Below, piece by piece: positions 1-13,202 of a DNA stretch of 23,342 nt. Location of the stretch: the IMG/VR virus record IMGVR_UViG_3300032241_002001, positions 1 through 23,342 of that record. The stretch is one strand, 5' to 3'. The notes under the pieces are model-generated. The model worked only from the letters and a program-made list of their open reading frames with translations, did no database searches and was not told the DNA's origin. How positions within the stretch are numbered: the stretch's first letter is position 1; each line of letters opens with the position of its first letter. This DNA is from a virus. Position numbers and translations under genes: made by a program.

Positions 1-198
1 TAACACACCTTCAAATGCTATAGTGGCATTGGCAATTAGTTCATCTCTATGACCCACTACATAGTCACTGATGTTATCGCCAGCCCAGAAACGTTTGTTA
101 TCACGTTTCATATTAAAACGAATAGCATCTGCTAGATTGGCTTCTTCATATCCGCCGTCGTCGGCCATTGCGTCTACTGCTGTTTGTTTATCTGACAT
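1..198 (-). CDS. folE: GTP cyclohydrolase I-like protein, N-terminal part (cut by window edge)
   Basis: Only the first 66 residues are in the window; the frame is still open at base 1. The ATG at 198 follows a good ribosome site (GGAG, six bases upstream). The stretch NKRFWAGDNISDY followed by an acidic helix (DELIANATIAFEGVL) resembles, from memory, the N-terminal region of phage-type FolE proteins that precedes the catalytic domain. The catalytic Cys/His residues lie outside the window, so the call rests on the weakest part of the protein. FolE converts GTP to dihydroneopterin triphosphate, the first step of both folate and preQ0 (7-deazaguanine) synthesis. A DpdA-like transglycosylase in the operon just upstream makes the preQ0 role attractive, but that is inference. 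The gene has its own strong promoter at 243-271. Confidence 0.5.
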   Translation of the reverse strand, partial: MSDKQTAVDAMADDGGYEEANLADAIRFNMKRDNKRFWAGDNISDYVVGHRDELIANATIAFEGVL

Positions 199-242
199 TT
201 TTTCTCCGAGTTATAAGGTCGTGGATGACCAGTCTTGTTGCT

Positions 243-271
243 ATTGTAAAGGTTATTTAGGTCTGTGTCAA
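243..271 (-). promoter_or_regulatory. Composite promoter of the folE-like gene: sigma70-type with internal CTAAATA
   Basis: Read on the minus strand, TTGACA (266-271) and TACAAT (243-248) are separated by exactly 17 bases. This is a perfect -35 and a five-of-six -10. Inside the spacer, at 254-260, lies CTAAATA, the late-promoter-like element I recall from T4-like cyanophages. It drives toward the start codon at 198. The same arrangement occurs before the sliding clamp gene. The site lies in the 78-base gap between the acetyltransferase stop (277) and the folE-like start; I see no clear terminator in that gap. Confidence 0.75.
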
Positions 272-276
272 TACGT

Positions 277-909
277 TTAGAAGATTTTAAGTGTAAGACT
301 GGTATCGTCTGATTGTTTACGTTTACCAGAATAAGTTCCTGGAACCTCAATTGATTCGGTAACTGTACTGTCTAGCATGAAGTTGGACCAATCGGCTATG
401 TTTAATTGACTGTCGGGTTTGCCTGGAAAAGTTCCTCTTAGGCCGATACATACGCCCGTACCTAAGGTAGTAAAGCAAAGATACGAAAACGGACTGATAT
501 GACAAAAGTCACCAATGATAACACAATGGCTAATTGCCAGATGATTGGCCAGGGTACAATGATCTCCGACTACAACATCATCGTACACTACATTGAAGTT
601 GTTGACGAAGGTATTGCGTCCGATCTTGACATTGTGCCCAATGTGCGAGTTGGCAGCTACCGCACTAACCCATTTGATATTGCGATCGGCCAAGGTGTCT
701 GCGATTTGTTTTTTAAAAGGTATGCTGGTAACAACGCCCATAAATTGGTGGCTGTCTATCCAGGTTTGATTCTTTGTTGCAACGTCTTCCAAACTAAGAT
801 GCTCACACGGTCTAAGATCTTTAAAATAGTTGTATAAAGTGTGGTTGTGAAATGTGTTGCCTATAAAACACAATGGTAATCCATGATCGTGAATAATGCT
901 GTATTGCAT
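277..909 (-). CDS. Hexapeptide-repeat (left-handed beta-helix) acyltransferase, NeuD/PglD-like
   Basis: A 210-residue protein. Residues about 1-75 look like the small alpha/beta N-terminal domain of NeuD/PglD-type sugar O- or N-acetyltransferases. Residues about 85-185 carry imperfect hexapeptide turns (HIGHNVKIGRNTFVNN, VVVGDHCTLANHLAISH, VIIGDFCHISPF) typical of a left-handed beta-helix. Such enzymes move an acetyl group from acetyl-CoA to an amino- or hydroxy-sugar and usually act as trimers. The ATG shares one base with the TAA of the oxygenase gene upstream, so the two are translationally coupled. With the PLP enzyme, GalE and glycosyltransferase in the same operon, a role in making an acetylated amino sugar is likely; the substrate is unknown. 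It is the last gene of the operon. A paralogous enzyme sits at 14780-15373. Confidence 0.7.
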   Translation of the reverse strand: MQYSIIHDHGLPLCFIGNTFHNHTLYNYFKDLRPCEHLSLEDVATKNQTWIDSHQFMGVVTSIPFKKQIADTLADRNIKWVSAVAANSHIGHNVKIGRNTFVNNFNVVYDDVVVGDHCTLANHLAISHCVIIGDFCHISPFSYLCFTTLGTGVCIGLRGTFPGKPDSQLNIADWSNFMLDSTVTESIEVPGTYSGKRKQSDDTSLTLKIF

Positions 910-1637
910 TAACGATTCTCCTTGCGATCGTATGCACCCACTTCGTCGTCAAACCAATATAGACTACGATGCGGTGGACTGGTAGGTGTGGCATTGCTGT
1001 TGAAATAAAATAAACGTAGCCCGTCACGACTTATGTCTTCAGGACAAGCAATCGGTTTAGGATGCCCGTGTACTAACTTTTCATTGTAGTTCCAAATCAA
1101 CAGACGATTAGGTTTGGGCTCAATAGTATGCAGGCGATTCTTCCTTTCAAAGTCCCAAAATTCTAAACCACCGCCCCACTCGGGTTCCCAAGTCCGGCCT
1201 ATGTATAAAATCATGCTAAGACATCTATTAAGTCCTAGTTGCTCATTCCAGTTGAAGTCTGTGTGCAGTTTAAGACTGTCACCCGGACCACAACGCATGA
1301 GTCCTGCGCCAATTAAGTGTGGATCTGGAATTAGTTTTTTAAGCCCAGTGATATCTTCTAACCAGTTTAAAAATTCACGACTGTTTAGATTCAACACTAG
1401 ATCTCTAATGTGTGGCGAAAATTTAAGATTGTTGCACTCGCGCATGAATGAACCATTGCGGGTAAACTTGCTCCAGACATGTGCCGGTATAGTTTCTATT
1501 TCTTCTTGTATGCCTTGTAACAGATCTTCTGGTAAAAAATCATCAAACGCCAGCCAAGGTACCGGAGTGCCGTGACTATAGTCTACAGCATAATTTTTTG
1601 GATCGTACTTGCTGGTTATGAGATCTATGTCAATCAC
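909..1637 (-). CDS. 2-oxoglutarate/Fe(II)-dependent oxygenase (prolyl-4-hydroxylase-like fold)
   Basis: About 242 residues from the GTG at 1637. The iron-binding set is visible: HTD (His125, Asp127), a distal His in LVHGHPKP (about 190-192), and an Arg in the following DGLRLFYF strand (about 208) that would bind 2-oxoglutarate. The strand EWGGGLEFWDFE between them is typical of P4H-like dioxygenases. These enzymes hydroxylate a carbon of a protein, sugar, base or small molecule using O2 and 2-oxoglutarate. Start choice: the frame also opens at a GTG at 1724, but that overlaps the upstream gene by 95 bases; GTG 1637 overlaps its stop by only eight. Neither has a clear ribosome site and no ATG is available near the N-terminus. 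Substrate unknown; the sugar-gene neighbourhood hints at sugar or glycan modification, but DNA is also conceivable next to a dpdA-like gene. Confidence 0.8.
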   Translation of the reverse strand: MIDIDLITSKYDPKNYAVDYSHGTPVPWLAFDDFLPEDLLQGIQEEIETIPAHVWSKFTRNGSFMRECNNLKFSPHIRDLVLNLNSREFLNWLEDITGLKKLIPDPHLIGAGLMRCGPGDSLKLHTDFNWNEQLGLNRCLSMILYIGRTWEPEWGGGLEFWDFERKNRLHTIEPKPNRLLIWNYNEKLVHGHPKPIACPEDISRDGLRLFYFNSNATPTSPPHRSLYWFDDEVGAYDRKENR

Positions 1638-2544
1638 GAGGTAGTGTTCCGGAGTATAGGTATTTTGCAAAACACAAGCGATTGGTGTTACCGCCACGAT
1701 TGTATTTACTAAACTCTGGCCCACCTAGACCAAATACCACACTCCGGCTGGCTGTCACTCCTAGTTGTTCACAAAATTTTAGCTGTGTCTTGCGCCAAGT
1801 TTCAACATTGTAATCGGCTGTGCAGGTTTTTAGTAGCTGTGATCCTACAGCACATGCTAATCGATTGTTATAATTTGTTTTGTTGTGAACCAACAAGGAA
1901 TCGTCGTCATCTGTGCGTGTAAGGCGCATGCCTATACGCAAATTTGCAACTGGAAAACTTTTGCTTAGGCTAAAGGTAATATCGGTGATACAAGGCCGAT
2001 CAAAGTCAAATTTGATGTCTTGACATATACCAAAAAACGCACAGTCGATCAGGACTGGGATGCCAAGCGCATCGCATTGATCAAGTACGGCCATAGTTTC
2101 AGGATGGATGTCTCCGGTATCGCTGAACGGCATGCTGACTACTACAGCATCACCTGCGGCCAATGTCTCATCTTCAATGTACTTCCATGTGGGAAAATAG
2201 TTGCGCCAGGCCGCTTGATGGTACATGTATTCACCGCGGAAACATCTAAATCTACGAGTAGAATTTTTGAGATAAAACTTGTCAAATGATTCTGTGGTAC
2301 CATTACTAAATGCTGCAATAGGAAATTGATCTAAACCTGACAGTTGGTTAAGTTGGCTGGCCCGAATCCAATCCTGATACTCGGATAAAAAATTATTTTG
2401 AATTTCTAGATCTTGTAAAAATTGTCCTTGGTTGGCCTGATCAAAAATAATATCATACACAGTAGACAACATCTCAGGGTCAATTACACTGGATGCTCCC
2501 CCAAAATTCAAGGTCTTGAGGTTGTTCATTGCTGGTTGGATCAT
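1630..2544 (-). CDS. Fold-type I PLP-dependent aminotransferase-like protein
   Basis: A 304-residue protein with the layout of a fold-type I PLP enzyme. There is a cofactor phosphate-binding stretch AFSNGTTESF (about 78-87), a Pro-rich strand, an Asp in PVLIDCAFFG (Asp167) that would hold the pyridine nitrogen, and SLSKSFPVANLRIG, where Lys195 is the expected Schiff-base lysine. It is shorter than most aminotransferases (usually 350-420 residues), so the small C-terminal domain is reduced. The ATG overlaps the GalE stop as ATGA, and its own stop overlaps the oxygenase start. A role as sugar or amino-acid aminotransferase in the glycan operon fits, but the donor and acceptor cannot be read from sequence. 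Confidence 0.7.
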   Translation of the reverse strand: MIQPAMNNLKTLNFGGASSVIDPEMLSTVYDIIFDQANQGQFLQDLEIQNNFLSEYQDWIRASQLNQLSGLDQFPIAAFSNGTTESFDKFYLKNSTRRFRCFRGEYMYHQAAWRNYFPTWKYIEDETLAAGDAVVVSMPFSDTGDIHPETMAVLDQCDALGIPVLIDCAFFGICQDIKFDFDRPCITDITFSLSKSFPVANLRIGMRLTRTDDDDSLLVHNKTNYNNRLACAVGSQLLKTCTADYNVETWRKTQLKFCEQLGVTASRSVVFGLGGPEFSKYNRGGNTNRLCFAKYLYSGTLPRD

Positions 2545-3494
2545 CGATTATACCAGGCCCAGGCATGAGTGACCATATCTTCTAGACCAAATTGTGGGCG
2601 CCAGCCTGACAAATTTTGAAAACGTTCTGCGCTGGCAGTCAACACTGCTGGGTCGCCTGGTCTTGCCTCTCCATGTAACATGGCAATGTCTTTACCAGTA
2701 ACTTTGGCTGCAGTTTTAACCACTTGTAAATTGCTATGTCCCTGACTGGTTCCAAGATTGTATACGCCCGGCACAATATCTTTTTCTAGTGCTCTAACGT
2801 GGGCTGTAGCCAGATCCTCTACATGGATATAATCACGTACACAGGTACCATCTTCAGTGGGATACTTGTCGCCGTAAAGCGTAAAATCTTTGTTTTCGAT
2901 AACAGATTCTAACACACGGGCAATGATGTGTGTAGCACCAGGCTCTTGCCCGTGTCTAGCTTGGCTGTCGGCACCACACGCATTAAAGTATCTAAAGCTG
3001 ACATAGTCTAAGCTATAGGCCCGTTGATAACTGGCCAACATCCAATCGATCATTAACTTGCTTTGACCGTAAGGACTAATAGGCTCGCACGGATCCGATT
3101 CTTCACACGGAGTCATGATAGGATCACCGTAGGTAGCAGCACTGCTACTAAAGATAAATTTGATGTGTGTTTGTTTTTGGTCTACTAGGAAGTCCAGCAA
3201 GCGTTTGGTCTTGACAAAGTTGTTTTCGTAGTATTCGCTGGGATTCATTAGACTTGGACCAACCAGGCTGGTGCCGGCACAGTGTATGATGGCATCCGGC
3301 TTGAACATGTCAATTGTTGCTAGGCCAACATCGCTGGCAAAGTCGTGAGTACACCACCAGGTGTTGGGCAAGTTCACCAAGCGTTCTGGCGGAGCACGAC
3401 GATCCACTCCTAAGACTTCGTGTCCGGCATCCAATAACTTTAATACAGTTTCTCCGCCAATGTAACCAACAGCACCGGTTACCATCACTTTCAT
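2541..3494 (-). CDS. galE: UDP-glucose 4-epimerase-like NAD-dependent sugar epimerase
   Basis: A 317-residue extended short-chain dehydrogenase. The N-terminal NAD-binding loop is TGAVGYIGG (6-14), followed by an acidic residue after the second strand (GVDRR, Asp31). Catalytic residues appear as SSSAATYG (117-124) and Tyr142/Lys146 in SPYGQSK. FRYFNACGAD and GTCVRDYIHVEDLA are hallmark GalE segments. GalE interconverts UDP-glucose and UDP-galactose, or the N-acetyl forms. The length (about 330-340 usual) and motifs are complete, so the enzyme is probably active. Its ATG overlaps the glycosyltransferase stop and its stop overlaps the PLP-enzyme start, so all three are translationally coupled. 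A substrate other than UDP-glucose, within the GalE/Gne group, cannot be excluded. Confidence 0.88.
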   Translation of the reverse strand: MKVMVTGAVGYIGGETVLKLLDAGHEVLGVDRRAPPERLVNLPNTWWCTHDFASDVGLATIDMFKPDAIIHCAGTSLVGPSLMNPSEYYENNFVKTKRLLDFLVDQKQTHIKFIFSSSAATYGDPIMTPCEESDPCEPISPYGQSKLMIDWMLASYQRAYSLDYVSFRYFNACGADSQARHGQEPGATHIIARVLESVIENKDFTLYGDKYPTEDGTCVRDYIHVEDLATAHVRALEKDIVPGVYNLGTSQGHSNLQVVKTAAKVTGKDIAMLHGEARPGDPAVLTASAERFQNLSGWRPQFGLEDMVTHAWAWYNR

Positions 3495-4696
3495 AGTTCG
3501 ATCTTCCTTACTGGGTATTTGGCCTGGCTCACATGGTCACGATAGCGATTGCCTGCACGATTCCAAGATTCACCTGAGCCCTCTAAGATATCTACAATGC
3601 GATCTACAGTGCCATTGGTCCAATCACTGATCAAGCCCATGTTGTGATGTGGCTCTTCTAGCAACTGTTCTAACTTGGTGTATGCATCGTCTATCGACCA
3701 AGGGACATAAAGCCTGTTTGGATCGTCGGCAAAAGTCTCAGGAAAACTACGATAAGCGGGATACAGCACATTACAGCCAAGTGTGTCAGCTTCTGAGACC
3801 GTGTTAGATACCCAGTCCTGTAAAGCACAATTAAATAGCACACGACTATCGTTAAGCAAATTGTAGTAGTCATTTTTCTTCAAGTTCTCATAAATTTTGA
3901 CCTGGCCTGCTGATTCCAACATTCTGGCACGAGTCACATAGTCAGGATTGTTACTGCGCAAAGGACCACCCTGCATGATAGCAAACTCAATGTCCTTGTG
4001 ACGTCCTTGACTGTGATACATATCAATCAGATCCATAAAGAAACCGGGTTGTTTTTCTTGATCAAAACGTGCCGCAAACGCCACACGAATTTTTCTTTGT
4101 TCAAACGGTCGAATATTTTGCGAGCCACCAATGCGTTCTAACACTTCTGCCTTGCCAAATGCCAATCCTGAAATATTGTAAATAGGAGCAGTCCAACCGG
4201 CAATGCGCATGTGGGCTACCATCTCTTCATTAGAAGCTAATATACCGGTGGCAAATTCATTAACCATTTTCTCATAGAGGCCCATCCACTTAGCCATACC
4301 CCATACATGAACAAAGTCATCAGGATCAATGGCCTGAGCAAGACAACGAACAAAAATACGGGGACGCTGAGCAGGATCGACTTGATCAAGAATATAAGGC
4401 AAGCTCTCGATACCGGGTTGAAACATGTCTTCAAAGTAGATAACATCTTCATTAGTAACATCTCCATTACGCATCATTTGAACCAGGTTCATCATTTGAC
4501 TCATACCAAAGTAGCTGCGGCCGTGTGCATCTAACACCTGTCCTACACTGATACTTTGAGTGTTGTCAATAGTAGTTCCAGGAACAACCACATAGTTGAT
4601 ACCACGCCGTTCAAATACTCTAGCGTTCCATTCAGTTAATTGTAGAGTGTATCGGGCTTCATACGACTCTAAGCCCATGTAGAATAACTTACGCAC
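3491..4696 (-). CDS. GT-B fold glycosyltransferase
   Basis: About 401 residues. The C-terminal half looks like a group 1 GT-B glycosyltransferase: RKIRVAFAARFDQEKQPGFF is the typical strand-loop where the donor domain starts, followed by a strand ending IMQGGPL, LLNDSRVLFNCALQDWVSNTVSEADTLGCN (compare the acidic E and the loop in GT4 donor sites), and a C-terminal helix. The N-terminal half holds a second Rossmann-like domain. The frame is open up to 4861, but the longer form covers most of the upstream 75-residue gene in another frame. GTG at 4696 has AGGA seven bases upstream and overlaps the preceding stop by eight bases; ATG 4678 is the alternative. With GalE directly downstream, a role in transferring a hexose or amino sugar to a glycan is likely. 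Acceptor unknown. Confidence 0.7.
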   Translation of the reverse strand: MRKLFYMGLESYEARYTLQLTEWNARVFERRGINYVVVPGTTIDNTQSISVGQVLDAHGRSYFGMSQMMNLVQMMRNGDVTNEDVIYFEDMFQPGIESLPYILDQVDPAQRPRIFVRCLAQAIDPDDFVHVWGMAKWMGLYEKMVNEFATGILASNEEMVAHMRIAGWTAPIYNISGLAFGKAEVLERIGGSQNIRPFEQRKIRVAFAARFDQEKQPGFFMDLIDMYHSQGRHKDIEFAIMQGGPLRSNNPDYVTRARMLESAGQVKIYENLKKNDYYNLLNDSRVLFNCALQDWVSNTVSEADTLGCNVLYPAYRSFPETFADDPNRLYVPWSIDDAYTKLEQLLEEPHHNMGLISDWTNGTVDRIVDILEGSGESWNRAGNRYRDHVSQAKYPVRKIEL

Positions 4697-4916
4697 GGCG
4701 ATATCCTGAGAATCTACGGCTGTCTTCATCCCACATGTTCTTGGCATTTTTGCCTTGGCTGAACTTGTTGTACTGTTGCCATGCATAACTCTTGAAGTTG
4801 TACACATCTTCTTCTCGAAAGCGGTAGCCATAGTCGACGCAAAATTCCAAATACTTGCCAAGTTCTTCTTGTACAGCCAAAGCTCTAGGGTTTACACGCG
4901 GTTGGGGTTTGCCCAT
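4689..4916 (-). CDS. Small conserved phage protein, unknown function
   Basis: A 75-residue, charged, Tyr- and Arg-rich protein without signal peptide or membrane segment. The stretch DYGYRFREEDVYNFKSYAW and the C-terminal KNMWDEDSRRF resemble, from memory, a small conserved protein of T4-like cyanophages with no assigned role. The ATG has an excellent ribosome site (AAAGGAAA) and sits ten bases after the stop of the previous gene. Its coding frame rules out the longer start of the glycosyltransferase that overlaps it. It is part of the small-gene group that follows the DpdA-like gene, so it could be a partner of that system; this is guilt by association only. Confidence 0.75.
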   Translation of the reverse strand: MGKPQPRVNPRALAVQEELGKYLEFCVDYGYRFREEDVYNFKSYAWQQYNKFSQGKNAKNMWDEDSRRFSGYRRA

Positions 4917-4926
4917 GATGTTTCCT

Positions 4927-5376
4927 TTAAATTACGATTAATTGTGTTGGACGAGTAAGGTTATAACTAATGGAGCATCCGTTCTCGCCGTCTTCGGACA
5001 CTTCGATTACTACATTACGACCAGGATAGCGATCGGCTATCTGTATATATAGGTCATCGGCGATCATCTCGCAACTTTTCCAGTCTAGTTCTAGAACGGA
5101 ACTCGAACCTGAATACAGTGACTCACACCAGCGTTTGAACTGGATAAATTCGATGTCCCTGTCATTGTGGAACACATCGATTGACACCCTGAAATGAAAG
5201 ATATGGCGAGGAGGATTAGCAAGGAACGCGACATCATACTCTCCTGCTGTATTTAATTTAGGATCAGTTGCGGCAGCAGGATAGCAATGAATGCCTTCCT
5301 TGCGGAATGTGACCCAGATCTGACGCTGGGCGGCTTGCATCACACGTTCTGCTGTTTCTCTTTCTGCTTGTATCAT
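4927..5376 (-). CDS. Conserved phage protein, possible T-fold (QueD-like) relative
   Basis: A 149-residue protein that I cannot name with confidence. The core reads PRHIFHFRVSIDVFHNDRDI, then EFIQFKRWCESLY, then a helix (SCEMIADDLYIQIADRYP) and a strand NVVIEVSEDGENGCSISY. This order (His-bearing strand, hairpin, D/E-F..LK helix, long helix, strand with a Glu, final Gly/Cys turn) resembles the T-fold of QueD/6-pyruvoyl-tetrahydropterin synthases, where LHGHSY supplies zinc ligands. Only part of the zinc triad is apparent (HxxH), so the resemblance is weak and activity doubtful. The protein also resembles conserved cyanomyovirus hypothetical proteins. ATGA overlap with the upstream gene shows coupling. 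If it is a QueD relative it would fit between FolE and DpdA in a 7-deazaguanine pathway. Confidence 0.6.
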   Translation of the reverse strand: MIQAERETAERVMQAAQRQIWVTFRKEGIHCYPAAATDPKLNTAGEYDVAFLANPPRHIFHFRVSIDVFHNDRDIEFIQFKRWCESLYSGSSSVLELDWKSCEMIADDLYIQIADRYPGRNVVIEVSEDGENGCSISYNLTRPTQLIVI

Positions 5377-5690
5377 TTTTGTAATAGTTCCATGGTTACG
5401 ATTTTACCGATTGATTCTGCTAGATTTTCTTCAGGAGTCACAATGTGTAGTTTGACGCGATGGTCATCCTTTTTGGGATCATAGTAGCGTGTTTCAATCA
5501 CAGTGCCGCCATTGACCTGTTGCACTTTGAAGTTGATAGGATCTGGAAGATCAATACCGCTGTCACTGCAATCTTCTATTTCGTCAAAATCACGAACGGC
5601 ACGCGATCCACGATTTCTACCTATAACTTTTATTTCAGCATGCCCACCTACTAGGAGGTTGAGCAAGCGTTGTCTTAGCCAATTTTTCAT
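5373..5690 (-). CDS. Conserved hypothetical phage protein
   Basis: A 105-residue protein. Residues 1-14 form a basic amphipathic helix (MKNWLRQRLLNLLV); residues about 53-105 look like a small alpha/beta domain with FKVQQVNGGTVIETRYYD, a strand LHIVTP and a final helix. No catalytic motif is visible. From memory a similar domain occurs in T4-like cyanophages without known function. The ATG overlaps the preceding stop as ATGA. A CTAAATA element at 5712-5718 lies 22 bases before the start, so separate late transcription from here is possible. It belongs to the same small-gene string as the DpdA-like gene. Confidence 0.7.
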   Translation of the reverse strand: MKNWLRQRLLNLLVGGHAEIKVIGRNRGSRAVRDFDEIEDCSDSGIDLPDPINFKVQQVNGGTVIETRYYDPKKDDHRVKLHIVTPEENLAESIGKIVTMELLQK

Positions 5691-6202
5691 TTTATTACTT
5701 CGTCCTTGGTATATTTAGACCAGTCAGTGAACAGGTCTCGATTTTGTAAGTCATGCAGGCTGTGGCACCACACTCCGGGATTTGTTGCTGCAAAATCTTT
5801 GTCATCGATTTTAATAGTTGCGTTGTAGCCATACTGTTTGATGTAAGGAAGTTTAACACTGATCATTGGAATAAAGTTATGAAACTCTACCAGGGCACTT
5901 TCTAATAAGCCTTCTGCTTGTGCATGATCCAGATCCAGCGTACATAACCATCCGGCTTCTAAACAGTCTTGAACCATGACTTCCCAATCGCGCCAGCCAT
6001 CGGCATCGTTGGTATCCAGTGCTGGAAAACTTTGATTGGCACCAAAGTAAATGTGTTCGCAATCGTTGTTCTTTGCTTCTTGCAACACAATTTGCGGATC
6101 TTGTAGACCTACAACAAATAATGTGCGTAGGCCAAAGGCGGCAGTATGTTCTACTTCGGTTCCTATAAAGAAACTTACTTCTTCGTGCCCTACTCTAATC
6201 AT
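5687..6202 (-). CDS. Conserved hypothetical protein of the dpdA neighbourhood
   Basis: About 171 residues from the ATG at 6202; a longer open frame to 6256 would run deep into the upstream gene, whereas ATG 6202 overlaps its stop by only eight bases. The protein has an alpha/beta look: FFIGTEVEHT, a strand TLFVVGLQD, HIYFGANQSF, a strand WLCTLDLDHA, and a C-terminal block KIDDKDFAATNPGVWCHSL. The repeated pattern of strands ending in acidic or His residues suggests an enzyme-like or TIM-barrel-like fold, but I cannot assign a reaction. It recalls a conserved cyanomyovirus protein of unknown role. Its position two genes after the DpdA-like gene, in a coupled string, suggests a related job. Confidence 0.72.
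   Translation of the reverse strand: MIRVGHEEVSFFIGTEVEHTAAFGLRTLFVVGLQDPQIVLQEAKNNDCEHIYFGANQSFPALDTNDADGWRDWEVMVQDCLEAGWLCTLDLDHAQAEGLLESALVEFHNFIPMISVKLPYIKQYGYNATIKIDDKDFAATNPGVWCHSLHDLQNRDLFTDWSKYTKDEVIK
5712..5718 (-). promoter_or_regulatory. CTAAATA element inside a coding region (possible late promoter)
   Basis: Minus-strand CTAAATA within the last codons of the 5687-6202 gene, 22 bases before the ATG of the next gene at 5690. No sigma70-like -35/-10 pair accompanies it, unlike the two composite promoters. It may be a late promoter or a chance match in coding sequence. Confidence 0.3.
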
Positions 6203-6401
6203 TTTGTTCAGTTGTGTAATGGGTTGAAGGATTATGGTCTTGTTTAAGTTTAACAAGTTGCGTCTTTAATTGCAACCTTTGTTTCTTCAAATTGTTCAAT
6301 TCGACATCATCGAATACACCAGTTGACTCCAAACCGTCAATGCGTTTATTCAGGGCCTGATGCGCTTGTTCTAAATGATGAATTCGGCGTTCCCAGGTCA
6401 T
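6195..6401 (-). CDS. Small coiled-coil protein, DUF465/YdcH-like
   Basis: A 68-residue protein, almost all helix. It has the DUF465 signature: a first helix with LEQAHQALNKRIDGLE, a turn GVFDDVELNNLKKQRLQLK and a second helix. DUF465 (YdcH) proteins are small helical hairpins found widely in proteobacteria, of unclear function. The ATG overlaps the stop of the DpdA-like gene as ATGA, and its stop overlaps the start of the next gene. It could act as an adaptor or oligomerisation piece for the neighbouring enzymes; no direct evidence. Confidence 0.65.
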   Translation of the reverse strand: MTWERRIHHLEQAHQALNKRIDGLESTGVFDDVELNNLKKQRLQLKTQLVKLKQDHNPSTHYTTEQND

Positions 6402-7954
6402 GCGGCCTCCAAGTTGTCTAGTTTAGATTGATCAAGTTCTACTTCATCCTCGTTAGCACCATGCGATGGTTCTACTTCCTCAAACAAAATATTGAACATG
6501 GGCCGACCGCTCTTGGCTTTCTTGCCTTTGAATCCTCTTGTACCAATAATGTCCATCCAGTAACGGTCGTAACTTTCGATGATAGCTTCGGCTTTGGCAC
6601 GATCGGGTGTGGCAAATATAGCGTCCACGATGTCGTGGAAGTACTTGTGATCACCGTTTTCGTTGCGCATCATGTAAGGATATTTGCCAGCATCATATTC
6701 ACGATTGGCACGCTGGACTGCTTCGATGTGCATCCAAACATTATGACCCATCAACAGTGCATAACTGAAGCTATCCCAACTTGTCTTGCCTTCCTTGCCA
6801 ATCTTGTTCAACATGCCAGGTTGATAGTAACAGATGTCTTTCATTTGCAAATGCTGACTGATTGGACTTTCGTCAAAGTGATCGACCAGTTTATCTTGCA
6901 ACACCGCATCACGATAGGAACGTGTATCTGTTGAATATTTTTTGTCATCTGCAATGGGACTCATGCGATAGCACCATTTACCTTCGTGTGGAAGATCGAT
7001 ATGATGATATACCTGTCCATTGGCTGTGGCCAAGAATGGACTGGCACAGTCAAAAGATATAGTAAAGCTAGGATTAACATACTTACGCACAGCACGTTGT
7101 ATGTCTGTGAGTAGGACTGCCCACTCTAGTTTACTTGTACCCAAGAAGTGCATCCAATCGTGTAGGCCTTCTTGTAACAGGCCGTCATGTCTAAGCGCCA
7201 CAAGTCTACGCAAGATCAAGTGTACATCACACATGTTCTGGCCACCCATGGCCCAACCATCAAAGTGTGTGTCTGGGTATTTCACAGGATCACAATAGTC
7301 TTTCATGATCTCGTACCAGTCGTCAGCGTTCTTGTGATTGTCACCTTGTAGAACGTTTAAGATCTTAGTACCACCATTGGCCTTGCCCCGGCGATTGGCC
7401 ATGAAGTATTCGTTGTTGAATTTGGTAGCATCGATGGCCTGCTGTAGAGTTTTAATTTTACAAGCATCTGAAGCCTTTTGATCATGAATCACCCAGGTTG
7501 GAATATCCAAGGTCATACAGTAGTCGCTGACTGTGTCTAGCCAAGTCAATACAGCCTTGCGTTTGGTTTCGGCTTTTTTACAACCTGAGCCGGCTTTCCA
7601 ATCACCTTCCCACAGGCCTTTGGCAATCTGGAATCCGCCTGAGTCACCTAACATAAGTGTTCCTGGCTCGCGATTACGAACCATGTCTTCGGACCAGTCT
7701 TGTTTAGTAAGGTCTAAGTTGGCATGGCCGCCCGAGTATAACGACCACCGGTATGGAAATAGACCTTTGGAACTGTTGAGCCAGTTCATCATCTCCATAT
7801 CTTTCATTTTGGCGGGCATACGAGTTTTGGGATCTACGTAAGGGCCGTTTACAGGGTCTCTTTGTTTGCCTATGTAGGTAGCATAGAAGCCACTAATAGC
7901 TGGAAGGAATACAGCGTAATCATTTTGCTTGGCTGTTAAGTTATCTTGTGTCAT
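6398..7954 (-). CDS. dpdA: DpdA-like DNA 7-deazaguanine transglycosylase (TGT superfamily)
   Basis: About 518 residues from ATG 7954, which overlaps the upstream stop as ATGA and has GGATC close by; an ATG-less longer frame to 7999 is less likely. Active-site elements of tRNA-guanine transglycosylase occur in order: GDSGGFQ (Asp104, the first catalytic Asp), TLDIPTW (Asp150), NVLQGD (Gln203, base recognition), DGWAMGGQN (Gly237-238) and SFDCASPF (Asp302, the expected nucleophile). The CxCxxC...His zinc site of tRNA enzymes is not visible, and the protein is longer than bacterial TGT (about 375). This fits DpdA, which swaps guanine in DNA for a preQ0-type base. Such bases protect phage DNA from host restriction. 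A FolE-like gene in the next transcription unit supports the pathway. An RNA substrate remains possible. Confidence 0.82.
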   Translation of the reverse strand: MTQDNLTAKQNDYAVFLPAISGFYATYIGKQRDPVNGPYVDPKTRMPAKMKDMEMMNWLNSSKGLFPYRWSLYSGGHANLDLTKQDWSEDMVRNREPGTLMLGDSGGFQIAKGLWEGDWKAGSGCKKAETKRKAVLTWLDTVSDYCMTLDIPTWVIHDQKASDACKIKTLQQAIDATKFNNEYFMANRRGKANGGTKILNVLQGDNHKNADDWYEIMKDYCDPVKYPDTHFDGWAMGGQNMCDVHLILRRLVALRHDGLLQEGLHDWMHFLGTSKLEWAVLLTDIQRAVRKYVNPSFTISFDCASPFLATANGQVYHHIDLPHEGKWCYRMSPIADDKKYSTDTRSYRDAVLQDKLVDHFDESPISQHLQMKDICYYQPGMLNKIGKEGKTSWDSFSYALLMGHNVWMHIEAVQRANREYDAGKYPYMMRNENGDHKYFHDIVDAIFATPDRAKAEAIIESYDRYWMDIIGTRGFKGKKAKSGRPMFNILFEEVEPSHGANEDEVELDQSKLDNLEAA

Positions 7955-8304
7955 TTGATCCAATGTTGTGCTAATACCATCAAGCTCAACCAAGCCCACA
8001 TGGTGTTAAATCCTACCAGGGTAGGCAAGGCTTTTTTACGGCTCGCCCAGATAAGTGTTACGCTGGTCAATAGTGTTAGGTAGTAAAGTTCCCAGATCTG
8101 GATACCAAAGATTAGTCCAGGAATAATGATGATGGCTTTAGCTACCCAACTAACAAACTCTACTGTGTTGTAATTTGTCCAGTATTCTTGTGTAAACAGC
8201 ATCAAGTAGCAGTCACGTATGTTGCGCCAACCGCTGTGGGTGTAACTGATCGCTATCAACACTGTCCATATACCGCAAGCCAGTAGAATTTGATTGGCAG
8301 TCAT
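7951..8304 (-). CDS. Small integral membrane protein, unknown
   Basis: A 117-residue protein with about four hydrophobic segments (roughly residues 4-22, 49-67, 70-87 and 95-112), Trp-rich, with a short polar loop between the first two. No signal peptide cleavage site or known family motif is evident. The ATG shares a base with the TAA of the clamp gene and its stop overlaps the DpdA-like start, so it is coupled to both. It would sit in the host inner membrane. Its place between a replication protein and a DNA-modification enzyme is odd. It could be a holin-like, superinfection-exclusion or transport protein; the sequence does not decide. Confidence 0.7.
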   Translation of the reverse strand: MTANQILLACGIWTVLIAISYTHSGWRNIRDCYLMLFTQEYWTNYNTVEFVSWVAKAIIIIPGLIFGIQIWELYYLTLLTSVTLIWASRKKALPTLVGFNTMWAWLSLMVLAQHWIK

Positions 8305-9026
8305 TATTTGGTCTGCGCAGGAAGAATGTAGTTGTAAACAGCTACACCTGAATCAACAGTGATCTGCGCCGCACCGTCGTCACTGATTTTAAATGTTTTG
8401 TCTCCGGTGAGATCCAAGATACTGATAACTTGTTTGATTGGCCAAGACCATGTACGCTTGAGTGTGCCGGTTACACCAGGGTGGAATACAAAGTTGCCTG
8501 CGTGTGTTGAATGATCACCAAAGAAAAACTTTAAATCGCCGTTTTCTGTCTTGGCTTGGAAGTTTACTTCTTCAGCATTGGCACTGGCCTGCATCTTGAG
8601 TCGCTGAATTGCTGCTACAGTTGGTTCAAATTCAATGTGCCAGTTGACGCCTTTGAATTTAACAGTCTTGGCTTTTTCTGTAACAATTTCAGAACTCATG
8701 AATCTGTAGTTGTTTTTAAAGTCGCCTACTGCATTTTTAAAAGCAATGCCATCTGGCTCACCTTTGGCATTTTGTGTGATACTTAAATCAGCACCTTCTT
8801 TGTACTCGTTCAAGTTCAACAGCACTTTTAACTTGCCCAAGTTTGGCATACCAAACAGGCCAATAAAGTCTGCTACCGGACCAGCAAATGCGCCTTCGAC
8901 CACCACGCTACGATCTTCAGCAACACCAAAAATCTGTGTTTCGGTATTGCTACCGGTAATTTTAACCAAGTCGATAACGCCTAGGTCATGTGTATGTTCT
9001 ACCAAGTCTAATAAATGATCTCTCAT
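8304..9026 (-). CDS. 45: DNA polymerase sliding clamp, gp45-like
   Basis: A 240-residue protein, close to T4 gp45 (228). The pattern is clamp-like: acidic N-terminal helix, repeated beta-alpha-beta units, VKFKGVNWHIEFEPT in the second domain, and FFFGDHSTHAGNFVF followed by a C-terminal strand (GVAVYNYILPA). The clamp forms a trimeric ring that tethers polymerase to DNA; in T4-type phages it also activates late transcription with gp33 and gp55. The ATG has AAGGAG nine bases upstream and follows a composite promoter at 9048-9076 that carries both sigma70-like and CTAAATA elements. The clamp loader genes (44/62), usually nearby in T4, are not in the window. Confidence 0.85.
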   Translation of the reverse strand: MRDHLLDLVEHTHDLGVIDLVKITGSNTETQIFGVAEDRSVVVEGAFAGPVADFIGLFGMPNLGKLKVLLNLNEYKEGADLSITQNAKGEPDGIAFKNAVGDFKNNYRFMSSEIVTEKAKTVKFKGVNWHIEFEPTVAAIQRLKMQASANAEEVNFQAKTENGDLKFFFGDHSTHAGNFVFHPGVTGTLKRTWSWPIKQVISILDLTGDKTFKISDDGAAQITVDSGVAVYNYILPAQTK

Positions 9027-9047
9027 GTGTAATTCTCCTTATGTTGT

Positions 9048-9076
9048 ATTGTACAGTGTTTATTTAGATTTTGCAA
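9048..9076 (-). promoter_or_regulatory. Composite promoter of the sliding clamp operon: sigma70-type with internal CTAAATA
   Basis: Minus strand: TTGCAA (9071-9076) and TACAAT (9048-9053) with a 17-base spacer, and CTAAATA inside it at 9061-9067. The start codon at 9026 lies 21 bases beyond the -10. The -35 directly follows the stop codon of the methyltransferase-like gene, so the whole 50-base gap is promoter and ribosome site. The design matches the promoter at 243-271, except that the gap between CTAAATA and TACAAT is seven bases here and five there. Confidence 0.7.
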
Positions 9077-10111
9077 CTATTTTGGCATTATTTTAGCCAT
9101 TACTTGTCCACCACGCATGGTAGTTAATTTGCCAGGTTTGTGTAGTTCAATCCAGGTCCACGGGCCGCCATTGTTAAATTCAAAACCTTGTTGATATCCG
9201 ACAGTTTCAGCCAAGCTACGGATTAGGTAGCCGGGTGTATAACAAGCAAAGTTTTGCTCAACCAATTCCACTGCCGCGCCACGGTCGCAATCGTTGAAGG
9301 TCATGAGCAGTACTCCGCCTGGTCTTAATTTGGTGTAAATTTCAGTCAGATATTGTCGTATCACATCAAGTGGTTTGTAGTTGAAAAAATTATAAACCAA
9401 ACATGATAAAAATTGTTCATTTGGTATCTTGTCCAGTATGGATTGATCTGGATTTTCCTGAATCACATAAGGCCGCAACCGACGTTGATATGCGTCCGGA
9501 AATTTATTGAGAGCTGGTTGTAACAACTGACGATGCTCATCAATAATGTAAAGCGGATCTGTGGATACCATGTGATGGATCAGCTCACTGTTGCCTGGAT
9601 GTATAATCATAGCTGGATAGTGCCAATCAGTGTAGCGACGTACTCGACCTATTTGTAGTTCCTTGGCTTCATCACTCAATTCAGGTACACGACTTAATAT
9701 GCCGTTTAGTGCAGTATCTCGCATGGCTTCAATATTTTTGTCGGCACCCCTGCGTAAAATACCGTAGTCATCTCGATAAGTGTCGGCACGATATTCGTTG
9801 AACCCGCGTAACATGGTATTTTGTGTTTCGTACCATTGATAGCTTTGTTGAAACAAACTGGGTTCTTGTCGAGTTATTTCATTTCGCACATGTTGCTTGA
9901 GGTTGGTCATGTAATCGTCAAACTGTTGAACAGCCTGCATTACAGCACCTTGTCGAGCACCGATCACTGTTGAACAATCTTGAATCTGTAGCGGATGATT
10001 TTGTACCACATGCACTATATCACTCAACGTAGTATGAGCAGTAGATTGAACTGGGTCAATAGAAAATCTTTCTAATTGATTAAGATAGTGTACAAGTTCG
10101 CTCAGTTTCAT
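9077..10111 (-). CDS. Methyltransferase-like protein with long N-terminal extension
   Basis: About 344 residues from ATG 10111, just after the polymerase stop; the frame also opens at a TTG (10123) inside the polymerase gene. The C-terminal third looks like the second half of a SAM-dependent methyltransferase: SCLVYNFFNYKPLDVI, then LRPGGVLLMTFND (the usual strand after motif III), then FNNGGPWTWIELHKPG as the final hairpin. The expected glycine-rich SAM loop is not clear; the best candidate region is STDPLYIIDEHRQ, which lacks GxGxG. The first 170 residues are mostly helical with a charged, coiled-coil-like stretch. Coupled to the DNA polymerase, it may act on DNA or a replication protein, or may be a non-catalytic relative. 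Confidence 0.6.
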   Translation of the reverse strand: MKLSELVHYLNQLERFSIDPVQSTAHTTLSDIVHVVQNHPLQIQDCSTVIGARQGAVMQAVQQFDDYMTNLKQHVRNEITRQEPSLFQQSYQWYETQNTMLRGFNEYRADTYRDDYGILRRGADKNIEAMRDTALNGILSRVPELSDEAKELQIGRVRRYTDWHYPAMIIHPGNSELIHHMVSTDPLYIIDEHRQLLQPALNKFPDAYQRRLRPYVIQENPDQSILDKIPNEQFLSCLVYNFFNYKPLDVIRQYLTEIYTKLRPGGVLLMTFNDCDRGAAVELVEQNFACYTPGYLIRSLAETVGYQQGFEFNNGGPWTWIELHKPGKLTTMRGGQVMAKIMPK

Positions 10112-10112
10112 A

Positions 10113-12767
10113 TTACCACTCAAATAGGGTTTGGAAAGTGTTTTCTGTGTTGGTAGCAGATTTTAGATCCCAGTCCAATACACTCAACAGGTTATCAATT
10201 TTTTGATCAACTACTGTAGTTTCCATTTCAGCATCATCAAACGGCAAGTCTTTAAACCACTGTGGCAGTTGTAACTCGTCTGTAGGATAACCAATCGACG
10301 TCCAGCCCAAGGGATTCTGTTTCAACTTGCACACAATGGTTTTCATACCGTCTACAATCTGCATTGAATATTTGTCACTGTTCATTCTACGCAAGTTGTT
10401 CCAGTTGATTGCCGCACGAACGTGCCCAGGCATGTTGGCTTTGCCTAAGCGTTCTTCTTCTTTGGCATACTTGGTCAAGTTGTTGACACGCTTGGGTGAT
10501 CCTTTTTCCCAACCCGGACGCTCTTTGAACAGGTATTTGAACTCGCGAATTTTTTCAATGATCTCATCACGTGTAGCACCAATCAACACATCGTTGAGAA
10601 TTTCACTCAAGAACTCTTGGATGACCTTGGGTGTATCACTACGCTTCAAGTCCAGACCCATGGCTTTGACCTTGCCAGGCGCACCGTGTGTGTCTACCCG
10701 CTTGTTTTCTTTGTCGTAATACATGACAGCATAACGTTTCTTGGTAATGAACAAGCCCTTTGAAGCTACAATTTCACGACCGCCCTTGATTACAGATCCC
10801 ATCTCTCTGGGCACATGAAACGCCTGTTCCATAAAGCCCGGGAATGAGTCGTTAACTTGATCAGCAATACTGTTATAAAGTTGAACAGCAATCTCTCGGC
10901 TCCACTGCATCTCGCCCTTTTCAATTGATTCTTTAAGAACAGGATAGGCTGTAAAGTAACACGAGTCTGTGTCACCATAGATGATTGCATCGCCTACGTG
11001 ATCATACTTGCCTGTGATGCATTCGTTTACATAAGCATCCATGTGACGGGCAATCGCACGACCAGTAAGAGTTGTGGACTGACCAATGCGCTTATCAAAG
11101 AAACGGCAACCAGGATTAAGAATAGCACCATAGAGACTGTTGAGGTTAATCTTTTTAACAAGTTGACGCTTGTCCCAATATTCTTCATCTTCTGCATTTT
11201 TACATTCCTTTAGTCGGGCCTGCATCTCTTTACGTTCTGCATACCAACGTTTTAGTAGCCCTGGAATAACTGCTTCTTTCTCGTAGGTAAAGATTGTGCC
11301 ATTGGCACTGAGCATCCAAGGTTGATTTGAATCAAAAATAATTTTCCATACTTCAGCAGCACTATGAACTGATTCTTCTCCATCTTTCCAGTCAATGGTG
11401 ATTTCTGTTCCAGGCTCTGTAGCCATTACTGCTTCATATTCTAAACTGCCGAATAAGCCTTCCCATGCCGCGGCAAAACTACTACCACCGCGTATCTTGT
11501 CTTGAATGTAACGATCAGTCATGATAGGACGTAGTTGTCCTACAATGGTCTCTGGTCCCATATTCAATGCGCGAATTGCCGACGGATATAGACTGTTGAT
11601 ATCTATTGATCCTACATATTCATGGATGCCTTTGCGTGGATACGCAACATAGGCACCTGCGGCTTGTGTGTCCTCGTCTGAGTAACGTTCTTTGCGATTT
11701 GGTACAACCATACCGCGCTCGTGTGCTTCATTGATAATGGCCTGCTCAGTCACAGCCACAGCACCCATAGTGGTCTGTAGTAACACTGTGTTTTCATGCG
11801 CCAGGGTATTGGCCAGATCTAAGAATTTTAGTTTCTTATCCAACTTGGCAAGAATCATTGTGTCTTGTCTGTTGTACTCAATAAATGTTTTAAAGTTTTG
11901 GTTGTACAGTTGATCCAATGTACCTTCAAACACTGTTTTGCTTTCGCCCAGTTCGTATTCAGCAATAGCATCCAAACTATAACTGTGACGTTCTTCATAT
12001 GTGTACTTGCGATACAGTTGCATATAGTCCATATGCACACGACCAATCAAATCATAGGTTTCGTTCTCAGCACCAAAGCGTTCAAACATGCGTTTTTTAG
12101 GATATTGATTCCATAAACAGAATCTACGTGTATCGTCTTTGCTTAGAACTCTGGTAACACGATTTACTGTGTAGGGTATATCATAGCCCTCTGAGTTCCA
12201 ACCAGATATGGCATCGGCATCTTCGATCAAGTCCAGGAATGTTTTTAACATTTCACCCTCGTCGGTGAATATGACAGTGTTTTCAAATTGGCCGGCAATT
12301 TCTCTCGCTGTTTCTTCACTCATGTGCTTGGGCGGGACAACCAAGGTGACCATTTGCTCGAGCCATTGCAGGTAGACACTAATAGCAGTGATAGCATTAA
12401 ATGGGTCTGTGGTTGGGCTGAAGCCACGCTCAGGGTCAAAGTCCACCTCAATGTCAAAAAATGCTACATTTAATTTTGGTGCGTCTTGCCCTTTGTAGTT
12501 GTCCTCAAGGCATCGAAACACAGGATTAATGTCAGACTCAAATAACTTCTTGCCCGATTGTATCCTAAGTTCCTTACGAAACTCTTTGTTGTTTCTAGTT
12601 GAAAATCTACTTACTGGTGTGCCGAAGATACTTTGAAATTTGCCGCGGTTGTCTTCGTAATAAAAAATATAGTTGGCCGGATACTCGCAATACTTACGCT
12701 CGCCATCTCTACGCTCAACTACATGTATGCGATCGTGTTCACGATCAAATAAGGCGTCAATGTACAT
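10113..12767 (-). CDS. 43: Family B DNA polymerase, T4 gp43-like
   Basis: An 884-residue protein, near the T4 gp43 length (898). Proofreading exonuclease motifs: FFDIEVDF (Asp105, Glu107), SGWNSEGYDIPY (Exo II, about 188-199) and EYNRQDT (Exo III, about 297-303). Polymerase motifs: SIDINSLYPS (A, Asp389), KKINLNSLYG (B, about 538-547) and IIYGDTDS (C, 595-602) with both metal-binding aspartates. The last residues (FQTLFEW) resemble the clamp-binding peptide at the end of gp43, which fits the clamp gene downstream. All motifs are intact, so the enzyme should replicate the phage genome with proofreading. The ATG has a strong ribosome site (AAGGAGAA). No intron or inserted homing gene interrupts it. 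Confidence 0.96.
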   Translation of the reverse strand: MYIDALFDREHDRIHVVERRDGERKYCEYPANYIFYYEDNRGKFQSIFGTPVSRFSTRNNKEFRKELRIQSGKKLFESDINPVFRCLEDNYKGQDAPKLNVAFFDIEVDFDPERGFSPTTDPFNAITAISVYLQWLEQMVTLVVPPKHMSEETAREIAGQFENTVIFTDEGEMLKTFLDLIEDADAISGWNSEGYDIPYTVNRVTRVLSKDDTRRFCLWNQYPKKRMFERFGAENETYDLIGRVHMDYMQLYRKYTYEERHSYSLDAIAEYELGESKTVFEGTLDQLYNQNFKTFIEYNRQDTMILAKLDKKLKFLDLANTLAHENTVLLQTTMGAVAVTEQAIINEAHERGMVVPNRKERYSDEDTQAAGAYVAYPRKGIHEYVGSIDINSLYPSAIRALNMGPETIVGQLRPIMTDRYIQDKIRGGSSFAAAWEGLFGSLEYEAVMATEPGTEITIDWKDGEESVHSAAEVWKIIFDSNQPWMLSANGTIFTYEKEAVIPGLLKRWYAERKEMQARLKECKNAEDEEYWDKRQLVKKINLNSLYGAILNPGCRFFDKRIGQSTTLTGRAIARHMDAYVNECITGKYDHVGDAIIYGDTDSCYFTAYPVLKESIEKGEMQWSREIAVQLYNSIADQVNDSFPGFMEQAFHVPREMGSVIKGGREIVASKGLFITKKRYAVMYYDKENKRVDTHGAPGKVKAMGLDLKRSDTPKVIQEFLSEILNDVLIGATRDEIIEKIREFKYLFKERPGWEKGSPKRVNNLTKYAKEEERLGKANMPGHVRAAINWNNLRRMNSDKYSMQIVDGMKTIVCKLKQNPLGWTSIGYPTDELQLPQWFKDLPFDDAEMETTVVDQKIDNLLSVLDWDLKSATNTENTFQTLFEW

Positions 12768-12846
12768 CGTTCTCCTTGTGGCTTATGGCCCACTGACCTT
12801 GATTCATGCGCCTTACGGGAGCGACTCGCTGTTGTAAAAACAGTAC
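12768..12846 (-). other. Leader region of the DNA polymerase gene
   Basis: A 79-base gap between the DsbA-like gene and the polymerase gene. I see no good promoter pair. On the minus strand it holds a short self-complementary sequence AGCGACTCGCT (12820-12830) and a possible 16-codon ORF (12757-12807, ATG preceded by AAGG) that ends eleven bases inside the polymerase gene. Either could serve translational control, as the T4 gp43 leader does, but there is no direct support. Confidence 0.3.
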
Positions 12847-13110
12847 TTATAAAGTTTTACCTACAGTGGTCAAAATTGTTTCCAACAGTTCATGATCCTG
12901 TTGCTCACGACCAAACTCGGCCTTGTGTGCCAGCTTGATGGCCTTCTTAAGGATGTTGGGTTTGATATCTAATTCTTCGGCAATGGCCTTGATAGTGTCA
13001 TTGAGTCCGCCGGTGAGTGTTTCAATCTCCAAGGTAACCTGCATACCTTCGTTGATGACCTGGGTCAGTTTGGCCTGCTCGGCTGTGTTAAAAGTTCTGT
13101 TGTTAGACAT
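12847..13110 (-). CDS. dsbA: DsbA-like small double-stranded DNA-binding protein
   Basis: An 87-residue helical protein. The layout (acidic/amphipathic N-terminal helix, a turn GLNDTIKAIAEELDIKPNIL, then KKAIKLAHKAEFG and a final helix) resembles T4 DsbA and its cyanophage relatives, small DNA-binding proteins that bind upstream of late promoters and modulate late transcription. Similar length (T4 DsbA is 89 residues) and the conserved ELxxKxxxxxKAxxxxHK pattern support the call, though the family is short and variable. The ATG has AAAGGAG. It is transcribed from a sigma70-like promoter at 13132-13159 and may co-transcribe the polymerase gene. Confidence 0.65.
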   Translation of the reverse strand: MSNNRTFNTAEQAKLTQVINEGMQVTLEIETLTGGLNDTIKAIAEELDIKPNILKKAIKLAHKAEFGREQQDHELLETILTTVGKTL

Positions 13111-13131
13111 GTAAATCTCCTTTGAATATGT

Positions 13132-13159
13132 ATTGTACAGGATTTTTTGGCAAAGTCAA
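13132..13159 (-). promoter_or_regulatory. Sigma70-like promoter for the DsbA-like gene
   Basis: Minus strand TTGACT (13154-13159) and TACAAT (13132-13137) with a 16-base spacer, followed by a strong ribosome site and the ATG at 13110. Unlike the promoters at 243 and 9048 it has no CTAAATA in the spacer. All three share the same -10 (TACAAT). Confidence 0.65.
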
Positions 13160-13173
13160 CATTTTAATTTGTC

Positions 13174-13202
13174 TTGACCAATCCGCAATAAGTATTGATT
13201 AT
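13174..13202 (+). promoter_or_regulatory. Probable promoter of the plus-strand gene pair
   Basis: Plus strand TTGACC (13174-13179) and GATTAT (13197-13202), 17 bases apart; the -10 matches the consensus at four of six positions. The ATG at 13220 follows 17 bases later with only a weak ribosome site. The region 13111-13219 thus holds two divergent, non-overlapping promoters. Confidence 0.45.

Follow-up and report, generated by a model that had tools for sequence, protein, structure and literature searches.

A probable jumbo-phage 7-deazaguanine DNA-modification operon and its probably clamp-tethered base-exchange enzyme

The viral contig IMGVR_UViG_3300032241_002001, whose whole length of 23,342 nucleotides is called the window below, carries a transglycosylase-like gene close to genes for a DNA polymerase and a putative sliding clamp. 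The window is a complete contig and a piece of a jumbo phage, close relatives of which are up to 320 kb long. A preliminary description, made from the sequence alone, proposed a possible 7-deazaguanine DNA-modification locus here, centered on a DpdA-like protein. Our analysis indicates that the locus is very likely a DpdA 7-deazaguanine system. The fuller explanation, that it is a jumbo-phage DNA-modification operon with a base-exchange enzyme tethered to the sliding clamp, is in our judgment probable.

The DpdA-type enzyme and its pathway genes

The AlphaFold model of the 518 amino acid (aa) DpdA-type protein (predicted local distance difference test score, pLDDT, 89.9) has the TIM-barrel fold of the tRNA-guanine transglycosylases (TGTs), and the best 24 PDB matches to it are all TGTs (from Zymomonas, mouse and archaea; E 1e-6 to 2e-3). 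The conserved motifs are GDSGGFQ (D104, S105), LD.P (D150), LQG (Q203), GG (G238) and FDCASP (D302); they hold the catalytic Asp pair and the substrate residues, and D104, D150, Q203 and D302 are invariant across 46 homologues that are 30–90% identical. The transglycosylase catalytic residues claimed in the preliminary description are indeed there, and it was also right that the zinc site of the tRNA enzymes is missing, as direct reading found no CxCx2C motif among the 518 residues.

Pfam, NCBIfam and PHROGs assign the protein to no family, a PDB profile search returned nothing useful, and the tRNA TGT model PF01702 does not match it; the absence of a family carries no meaning, since PF01702 likewise fails to detect two proven enzymes, DpdA1 of phage 9g and DpdA2 of Vibrio phage nt-1. 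The enzyme was not found to group with the tRNA TGTs: apart from the lack of a PF01702 match, hhalign links its profile to nt-1 DpdA2 only (E 2.9e-5). The profile gave no match at E<=10 in nt-1 and 9g, both proven to contain 7-deazaguanines, or in CP220 and HVTV-1, and 9g DpdA1 (317 aa) aligns with the family only at the DSGxF motif, so that in direct comparison with DpdA1 and DpdA2 the window family looks like a separate subfamily. Among sequenced isolates this type of DpdA is present in the Pseudomonas phage PA5oct group, Vibrio phage 2.275.O (where QueF, a YhhQ-like transporter, QueC, FolE and QueD lie beside it) and Sinorhizobium phage Phosso; PhiXhv-type phages of Xanthomonas match it weakly. 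Viral-contig scans with the PA5oct and 2.275.O DpdAs as queries gave no matches.

The DpdA gene is linked to 7-deazaguanine genes. The FolE-like gene that the preliminary description placed at the end of the contig, starting at position 198 of the minus strand, is confirmed and comprises the first 66 aa of the protein; the complete FolE proteins of relatives match PF01227 with E about 1e-40. The window stops within FolE, and the remaining pathway of this phage is therefore taken from relatives. There, the roughly 25 kb downstream of DpdA hold, on the DpdA strand, orthologues of FolE, then QueD, then QueE. NCBIfam models support the QueE assignment, as do its matches in the PDB, which are to 7-carboxy-7-deazaguanine synthase. 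A lack of deazaguanine genes, which would have spoken against the proposed locus, is not what the related records show, as 16 of 16 carry FolE and 14 of 16 carry PTPS/QueD.

The DpdA tail and the putative sliding clamp

Homologues of the 240-aa putative clamp are annotated as PCNA or sliding clamp and lie close to the polymerase in all phages read; a PDB profile search with the window protein gave nothing useful. In Phosso, the protein upstream of DpdA was considered as a clamp and rejected as a virion protein; the Phosso clamp lies elsewhere, beside the polymerase.

Near its C-terminus, within a low-pLDDT segment, the window DpdA carries a peptide similar in type to the C-terminus of the polymerase that the phage encodes, and the predicted clamp-binding peptides of this phage are RPMFNILFEEVE and ENTFQTLFEW. 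Among 147 complete homologues, 134 have the pattern F..[LFIM]F in the DpdA tail, whereas shuffling the tails yields it in 2.9% of cases; after thinning at 80% identity it is present in 36 of 45 tails. Several tails without the usual motif have a related copy at the extreme C-terminus (LNNLFTFG in locus L241, NSDIFEV in L248), and the DpdA of L254 has lost the usual site and ends in FNELFQLGT; such turnover to new C-terminal positions is as expected for a functional short motif. The tails also resemble the polymerase of the same phage (polymerase/DpdA): HFDSLFGW/SFNSLFDV in PA5oct, NNTDLFDW/NNNDLFGW in 2.275.O, SLDDLFE/TLDELFE in Acidovorax phage ACP17, SLESLFG/SLEELFG in Xanthomonas phage X1 and SLEDLFGW/SLDDLFG in Stenotrophomonas phage Moby. 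Polymerase and DpdA are the only consistent carriers of the motif among the 112 gene families of the compared regions.

The DpdA1 proteins of the Queuovirinae phages 9g, NP1, Skure and R7M end in RLQDLFDE, RIQELF, RVMELF or DIQELF, that is, in [QM][DE]LF, which is reminiscent of bacterial clamp-binding peptides; the DpdA1 gene adjoins the annotated clamp gene in 9g, NP1 and R7M and is one gene away from it in Skure. In phage T4, the polymerase gp43 ends in SLDFLFG, and gp43, gp55 and gp33 bind gp45 through C-terminal epitopes that can replace one another (PMC2988020). Because the DpdA and polymerase tails are alike, because this likeness recurs in unrelated phages and because of the T4 epitope, DpdA is probably a client of the sliding clamp, and on these sequence comparisons we consider its tethering to the clamp quite likely. 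The word clamp is absent from two main papers on phage 7-deazaguanines, and a search of openly readable papers that linked these topics to the sliding clamp found none that reports such a role. We note that in one related contig (L152; G011:27123-27680) a 185-aa protein encoded between the 171-aa open reading frame (ORF) and the QueD paralogue (see below) ends in STFHNLFTLE, and judged by this ending it is a possible second clamp client of the operon.

Two other accounts of these data were considered. The TGT fold and the company of queuosine-pathway genes could mark a variant tRNA-modifying TGT of the queuosine pathway, acting on tRNA rather than DNA, but the missing zinc motif, the polymerase-like clamp peptide, the clamp and polymerase genes nearby and the profile similarity to the DpdA2 of nt-1, a phage that has modified DNA (PMC6884629), make this very improbable. 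The resemblance of the DpdA and polymerase tails might instead be due to chance, or to a linker motif unrelated to the clamp; the motif is short and the clamp family is unmatched to gp45. Its frequency relative to shuffled tails, its agreement, in one lineage after another, with the polymerase of the same phage, its turnover to new positions and its presence in three DpdA subfamilies argue otherwise, and we hold chance or an unrelated linker to be improbable as well, if not to quite the same degree.

A proposed branch without QueC

No QueC was found in the close relatives of the window, including contigs of 320 kb and 317 kb, an absence that is provisional because these relatives are contigs of unknown completeness; apparent matches in three of the contigs (G001, G005 and G012) were rejected as NAD synthase. 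With QueC missing, preQ0 is probably not the product.

The 149-aa protein encoded four genes downstream of DpdA may act in this branch. Its model has a pLDDT of 90.3, and the first 15 PDB matches are all QueD or PTPS, the best being E. coli QueD 4ntk (probability 1.00, TM 0.72 on target). H30, L52, H58 and E128 are invariant in 52 of 52 homologues, H56 is found in 51 of 52, and the S-C-E region is conserved. Leu52, four residues ahead of the HxH motif, corresponds to the catalytic Cys of QueD (an equivalence read from the sequence, not from superposed models). In hhalign only the C-terminal half aligns with phage QueDs (E 6e-4), and a PDB profile search gave nothing useful. The QueD-like pattern of the preliminary description is thus borne out for the T-fold, but the catalytic Cys is replaced by Leu and the functional QueD is a separate gene farther downstream. 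A QueF-like reading, based on a Cys-x6-Asp spacing, was dropped: Cys31 is present in only 11 of 52 homologues, and the structure search leads to QueD.

In nine isolated phages, FolE, QueD, QueE or DpdA is no more than about 4 kb from the paralogue, and none of the nine has a clear QueC; a partial QueC-like match lies elsewhere in Vibrio phage D479. Of the two genes, ten phage lineages have only the paralogue, six have only QueC and none has both (Fisher p 1.2e-4; lineages were grouped by hand, D479 was left out, and QueC of Moby and pf16 was taken as annotated). This exclusion suggests that the paralogue most likely takes the place of QueC, with 7-carboxy-7-deazaguanine or its product as substrate, and from its distribution in sequenced phages we consider a role in the QueC-less branch fairly likely. 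Cui et al. in 2023 reportedly described deoxy-7-deazaguanine and a carboxy-deazaguanine decarboxylase, DpdL, with which the QueD paralogue may be identical.

A glycosyltransferase gene, adjoined by an epimerase gene in most long relatives, accompanies the paralogue. Locus counts from the viral-contig scans, here and in Table 1, are lower bounds that refer to the matches listed. Among those matches, 89 loci have the QueD paralogue, and a glycosyltransferase match is nearby in 77 of them, a window-type DpdA in 75, FolE in 69 and QueC in none. In the reverse test, which took contigs with at least 5 kb upstream of the glycosyltransferase, 72 of the 73 viral contigs listed have the paralogue and all 73 have DpdA. 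When the glycosyltransferase of Synechococcus phage BUCT-ZZ01 was compared by BLAST with 50,697 phage records, only ACP17, X1 and Phosso were found besides itself, all in such clusters, and paralogue, glycosyltransferase and a DpdA of a different subfamily occur together in ACP17, X1 and BUCT-ZZ01. A viral-contig scan with the X1 glycosyltransferase gave no matches, and some weak glycosyltransferase matches without Pfam support (e.g., in L366) were not counted as evidence. The linkage to the paralogue and DpdA makes base glycosylation a reasonable prediction, and that the modified base is glycosylated is a fair guess.

Bacterial contigs from Magnetospirillum and others (L356-L359, L362 and L364) have the paralogue adjoining DpdA, and most of them also have a glycosyltransferase-like gene and QueD. 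Two contigs of Streptomyces sp. NEAU-Y11 (L367 and L368) carry paralogue, QueD and FolE; DpdA was not found there, and they are possibly part of a 7-deazapurine natural-product cluster. Among the matches listed, a phosphoribosyltransferase gene lies near QueE in 21 of the 89 loci located with the paralogue and in 51 of the 80 located with the glycosyltransferase (e.g., L143:8471-9001, minus strand, and L179:2441-2902), and is reminiscent of 7-deazapurine nucleoside pathways. The jumbo contigs G001, G003, G005, G006 and G012 have 11–17 radical SAM domain matches each, far above the need of QueE. In Moby, an inositol-3-phosphate synthase gene (L264:6454-7704) lies between FolE and QueC-DpdA.

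The product of the pathway can be read in other ways. Many bacteria encode QueC, and when dpdA was the only 9g gene supplied to E. coli, preQ0 was inserted (PMC6884629), so the host might supply QueC and the inserted base might be preQ0, as in phage CAjan. This seems unlikely, as QueC and the paralogue are mutually exclusive over the 16 lineages, and a phage that encodes three of four steps without the fourth suggests another end product. A better-placed alternative is that the paralogue removes the carboxyl group of 7-carboxy-7-deazaguanine, so that the end product is plain 2'-deoxy-7-deazaguanine, and that the glycosyltransferase serves virion or surface sugars; in phages phiST, RHph_I1_18 and Bakedbeans the paralogue does lie beside FolE, QueD and QueE without a detected glycosyltransferase. 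The near-constant company of paralogue and DpdA in contigs found via the glycosyltransferase, and the restriction of its only BLAST relatives to such clusters, speak against it, and it falls somewhat short of an even chance.

Several points weigh against the explanation favored here, a QueC-less pathway feeding a clamp-tethered DpdA. The putative clamp has no significant similarity to T4 gp45 (hhalign E 0.026); the clamp-type tail is absent from nt-1 DpdA2 and from the PhiXhv homologue, and it is degenerate in pf16. The window's own QueD paralogue has Pro56 (5209-5211, minus strand) in place of one His of the presumed metal-binding triad (H30, H56 and H58), which may be either a true variant or a sequencing error. 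The glycosyltransferase could act in virion or cell-surface sugars, a role that is conceivable because several sugar genes lie nearby, and the provisional nature of the QueC absence belongs here too.

Operon organization and related systems

The minus strand reads, in order, DNA polymerase, a 344-aa ORF, the putative clamp, a 117-aa ORF, DpdA, ORFs of 68, 171, 105, 149 (the QueD paralogue) and 75 aa, the glycosyltransferase, the epimerase, further sugar genes and the first 66 codons of FolE (Table 1). Across the 11 regions compared, the core of polymerase, 344-aa ORF, clamp, DpdA, 171-aa ORF, 149-aa ORF, glycosyltransferase, epimerase and FolE is kept, and the 117-aa and 68-aa ORFs are variable and lie outside it. 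The 171-aa protein has no Pfam or PHROG match; its homologue in PA5oct is 50% identical and it is also found within the ACP17 FolE-DpdA cluster, and it may therefore be a further partner of the DpdA system. Pfam and PHROG searches gave no family for the 105-aa ORF.

Table 1. Features of the operon region, in window coordinates
Feature	Position	Strand	Evidence or remark
FolE (GTP cyclohydrolase I), N-terminal 66 aa	1..198	-	truncated by contig end; matches FolE ORFs in at least 62 loci
Sigma70-like promoter TTGACA-N17-TACAAT upstream of FolE	243..271	-	11/12 matches; best site within 1-13200
Nucleotide-sugar epimerase	2541..3494	-	adjoins glycosyltransferase; possible sugar supply; PF01370 E 1.6e-54
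GT-B/GT4-like glycosyltransferase, 401 aa	3491..4696	-	GTG start, set against relatives; PF00534 E 1.8e-4
75-aa ORF	4689..4916	-	conserved in lineage; at least 69 loci
QueD-fold paralogue, 149 aa	4927..5376	-	without catalytic Cys; phrog_17812; best PDB match QueD 4ntk
105-aa ORF	5373..5690	-	conservation limited to lineage; at least 61 loci
171-aa conserved protein	5687..6202	-	candidate partner; at least 89 loci
68-aa DUF465 coiled-coil protein	6195..6401	-	variable; PF04325 E 4e-12; at least 29 loci
DpdA-type DNA-guanine transglycosylase, 518 aa	6398..7954	-	TGT fold in predicted structure; D104, S105, Q203 and D302 invariant
Clamp-binding-type peptide MFNILFEEVE	6470..6499	-	DpdA residues 486-495, in low-pLDDT segment 474-505
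117-aa ORF, clamp-DpdA interval	7951..8304	-	seen in 4 loci only, among the matches listed; outside conserved core
Putative sliding clamp, 240 aa	8304..9026	-	phrog_12062; position, size, homologue annotation
Sigma70-like promoter TTGCAA-N17-TACAAT	9048..9076	-	just upstream of clamp gene; consensus match only
Polymerase C-terminal peptide TFQTLFEW	10116..10139	-	same kind as DpdA tail; equivalent to T4 gp43 end SLDFLFG
Family B DNA polymerase, 884 aa	10113..12767	-	phrog_262 E 6e-198

The small ORFs had been described as a string coupled by ATGA overlaps and driven from the clamp promoter. Four-nucleotide overlaps are found at the junctions 117-aa ORF/DpdA, DpdA/68-aa ORF, 171/105 and 105/149, but the 68/171 junction is an 8-nucleotide overlap and a 10-nucleotide gap precedes the 75-aa ORF; clamp and 117-aa ORF meet at TAATG. 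A sigma70-like site does precede the clamp gene, but with 43 such sites present against 29 +/- 5 expected their enrichment is modest, so that its driving the operon is plausible and no more, and FolE has a stronger site of its own. A third site (13132-13159, minus strand) directly precedes an 87-aa regulator-like ORF; it and the two in Table 1 have the same -10 hexamer, which suggests a single shared regulon. Elsewhere the contig encodes a ferritin/Dps-like protein (21750-22175, minus strand) and a nitronate monooxygenase-like protein (13220-14140, plus strand).

The clamp linkage of the DpdA gene set, presented earlier as unrecognized, has a precedent in 9g, the prototype dG+ phage. The dG+ system of 9g and the Queuovirinae shares with the window the polymerase-clamp-DpdA-FolE-QueD block, the FolE, QueD and QueE genes and a clamp-type LF peptide at the end of DpdA1, but it has Gat-QueC, no QueD paralogue, the shorter DpdA1 and a 330-aa clamp. 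The DpdA2 of the nt-1/KVP40 group is a distant sequence relative among T4-type replication genes; that group differs in having QueC and in lacking the paralogue, the tail peptide and a clamp gene beside DpdA2. The DpdA2-type clusters of ACP17, X1 and BUCT-ZZ01 have the paralogue, a related glycosyltransferase, FolE, QueE, a clamp-type DpdA tail and no QueC, but their DpdA is from another subfamily. PA5oct has homologous polymerase, clamp, DpdA (35%), QueD paralogue (53%) and QueE in a single stretch that also holds a weak Glycos_transf_1 protein; its FolE and two QueD genes lie elsewhere in the genome, and its polymerase is split by a homing endonuclease. The T4 clamp clients gp43, gp55 and gp33 likewise have short hydrophobic-acidic C-terminal epitopes, that of gp55 on a variable linker (PMC2988020), whereas the window DpdA is a predicted base-exchange enzyme. 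In huimycin biosynthesis, a natural-product precedent for glycosylation of such a base, the glycosyltransferase HuiG acts on a 7-deazaguanine-derived base (PMC7439116), but the product is a free natural product, QueC is present, and neither DNA nor DpdA is involved.

In the mechanism that we propose, FolE, QueD and QueE (the last two past the contig end, as seen in relatives) would convert GTP to 7-carboxy-7-deazaguanine, and DpdA would exchange guanine in phage DNA for this base or a product of it. The flexible C-terminal peptide of DpdA appears to mimic the clamp-binding end of the polymerase of the same phage; DpdA would thus probably bind the putative sliding clamp, whose gene lies beside its own, and act on freshly replicated DNA. 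The Cys-less QueD-fold paralogue would most likely have the side chain of 7-carboxy-7-deazaguanine as its target, the linked glycosyltransferase would probably attach a sugar to the modified base, and the modified DNA should then withstand host restriction. That all of this holds jointly, namely an undescribed glycosylated 7-deazaguanine made by a QueC-less pathway, a clamp-riding DpdA, and tethering that is general in at least three phage DpdA subfamilies, is a tentative proposal that we would put a little below even.

Openly readable papers describe 7-deazaguanine insertion only as probably post-replicative. The clamp-binding tail would supply a mechanism, replication-coupled base exchange, that seems valid in several unrelated phage groups, and the QueD paralogue and glycosyltransferase are likely enzymes of a QueC-less branch in very many uncultured phages, which may be of value as a source of new DNA bases and for understanding how phages evade restriction.

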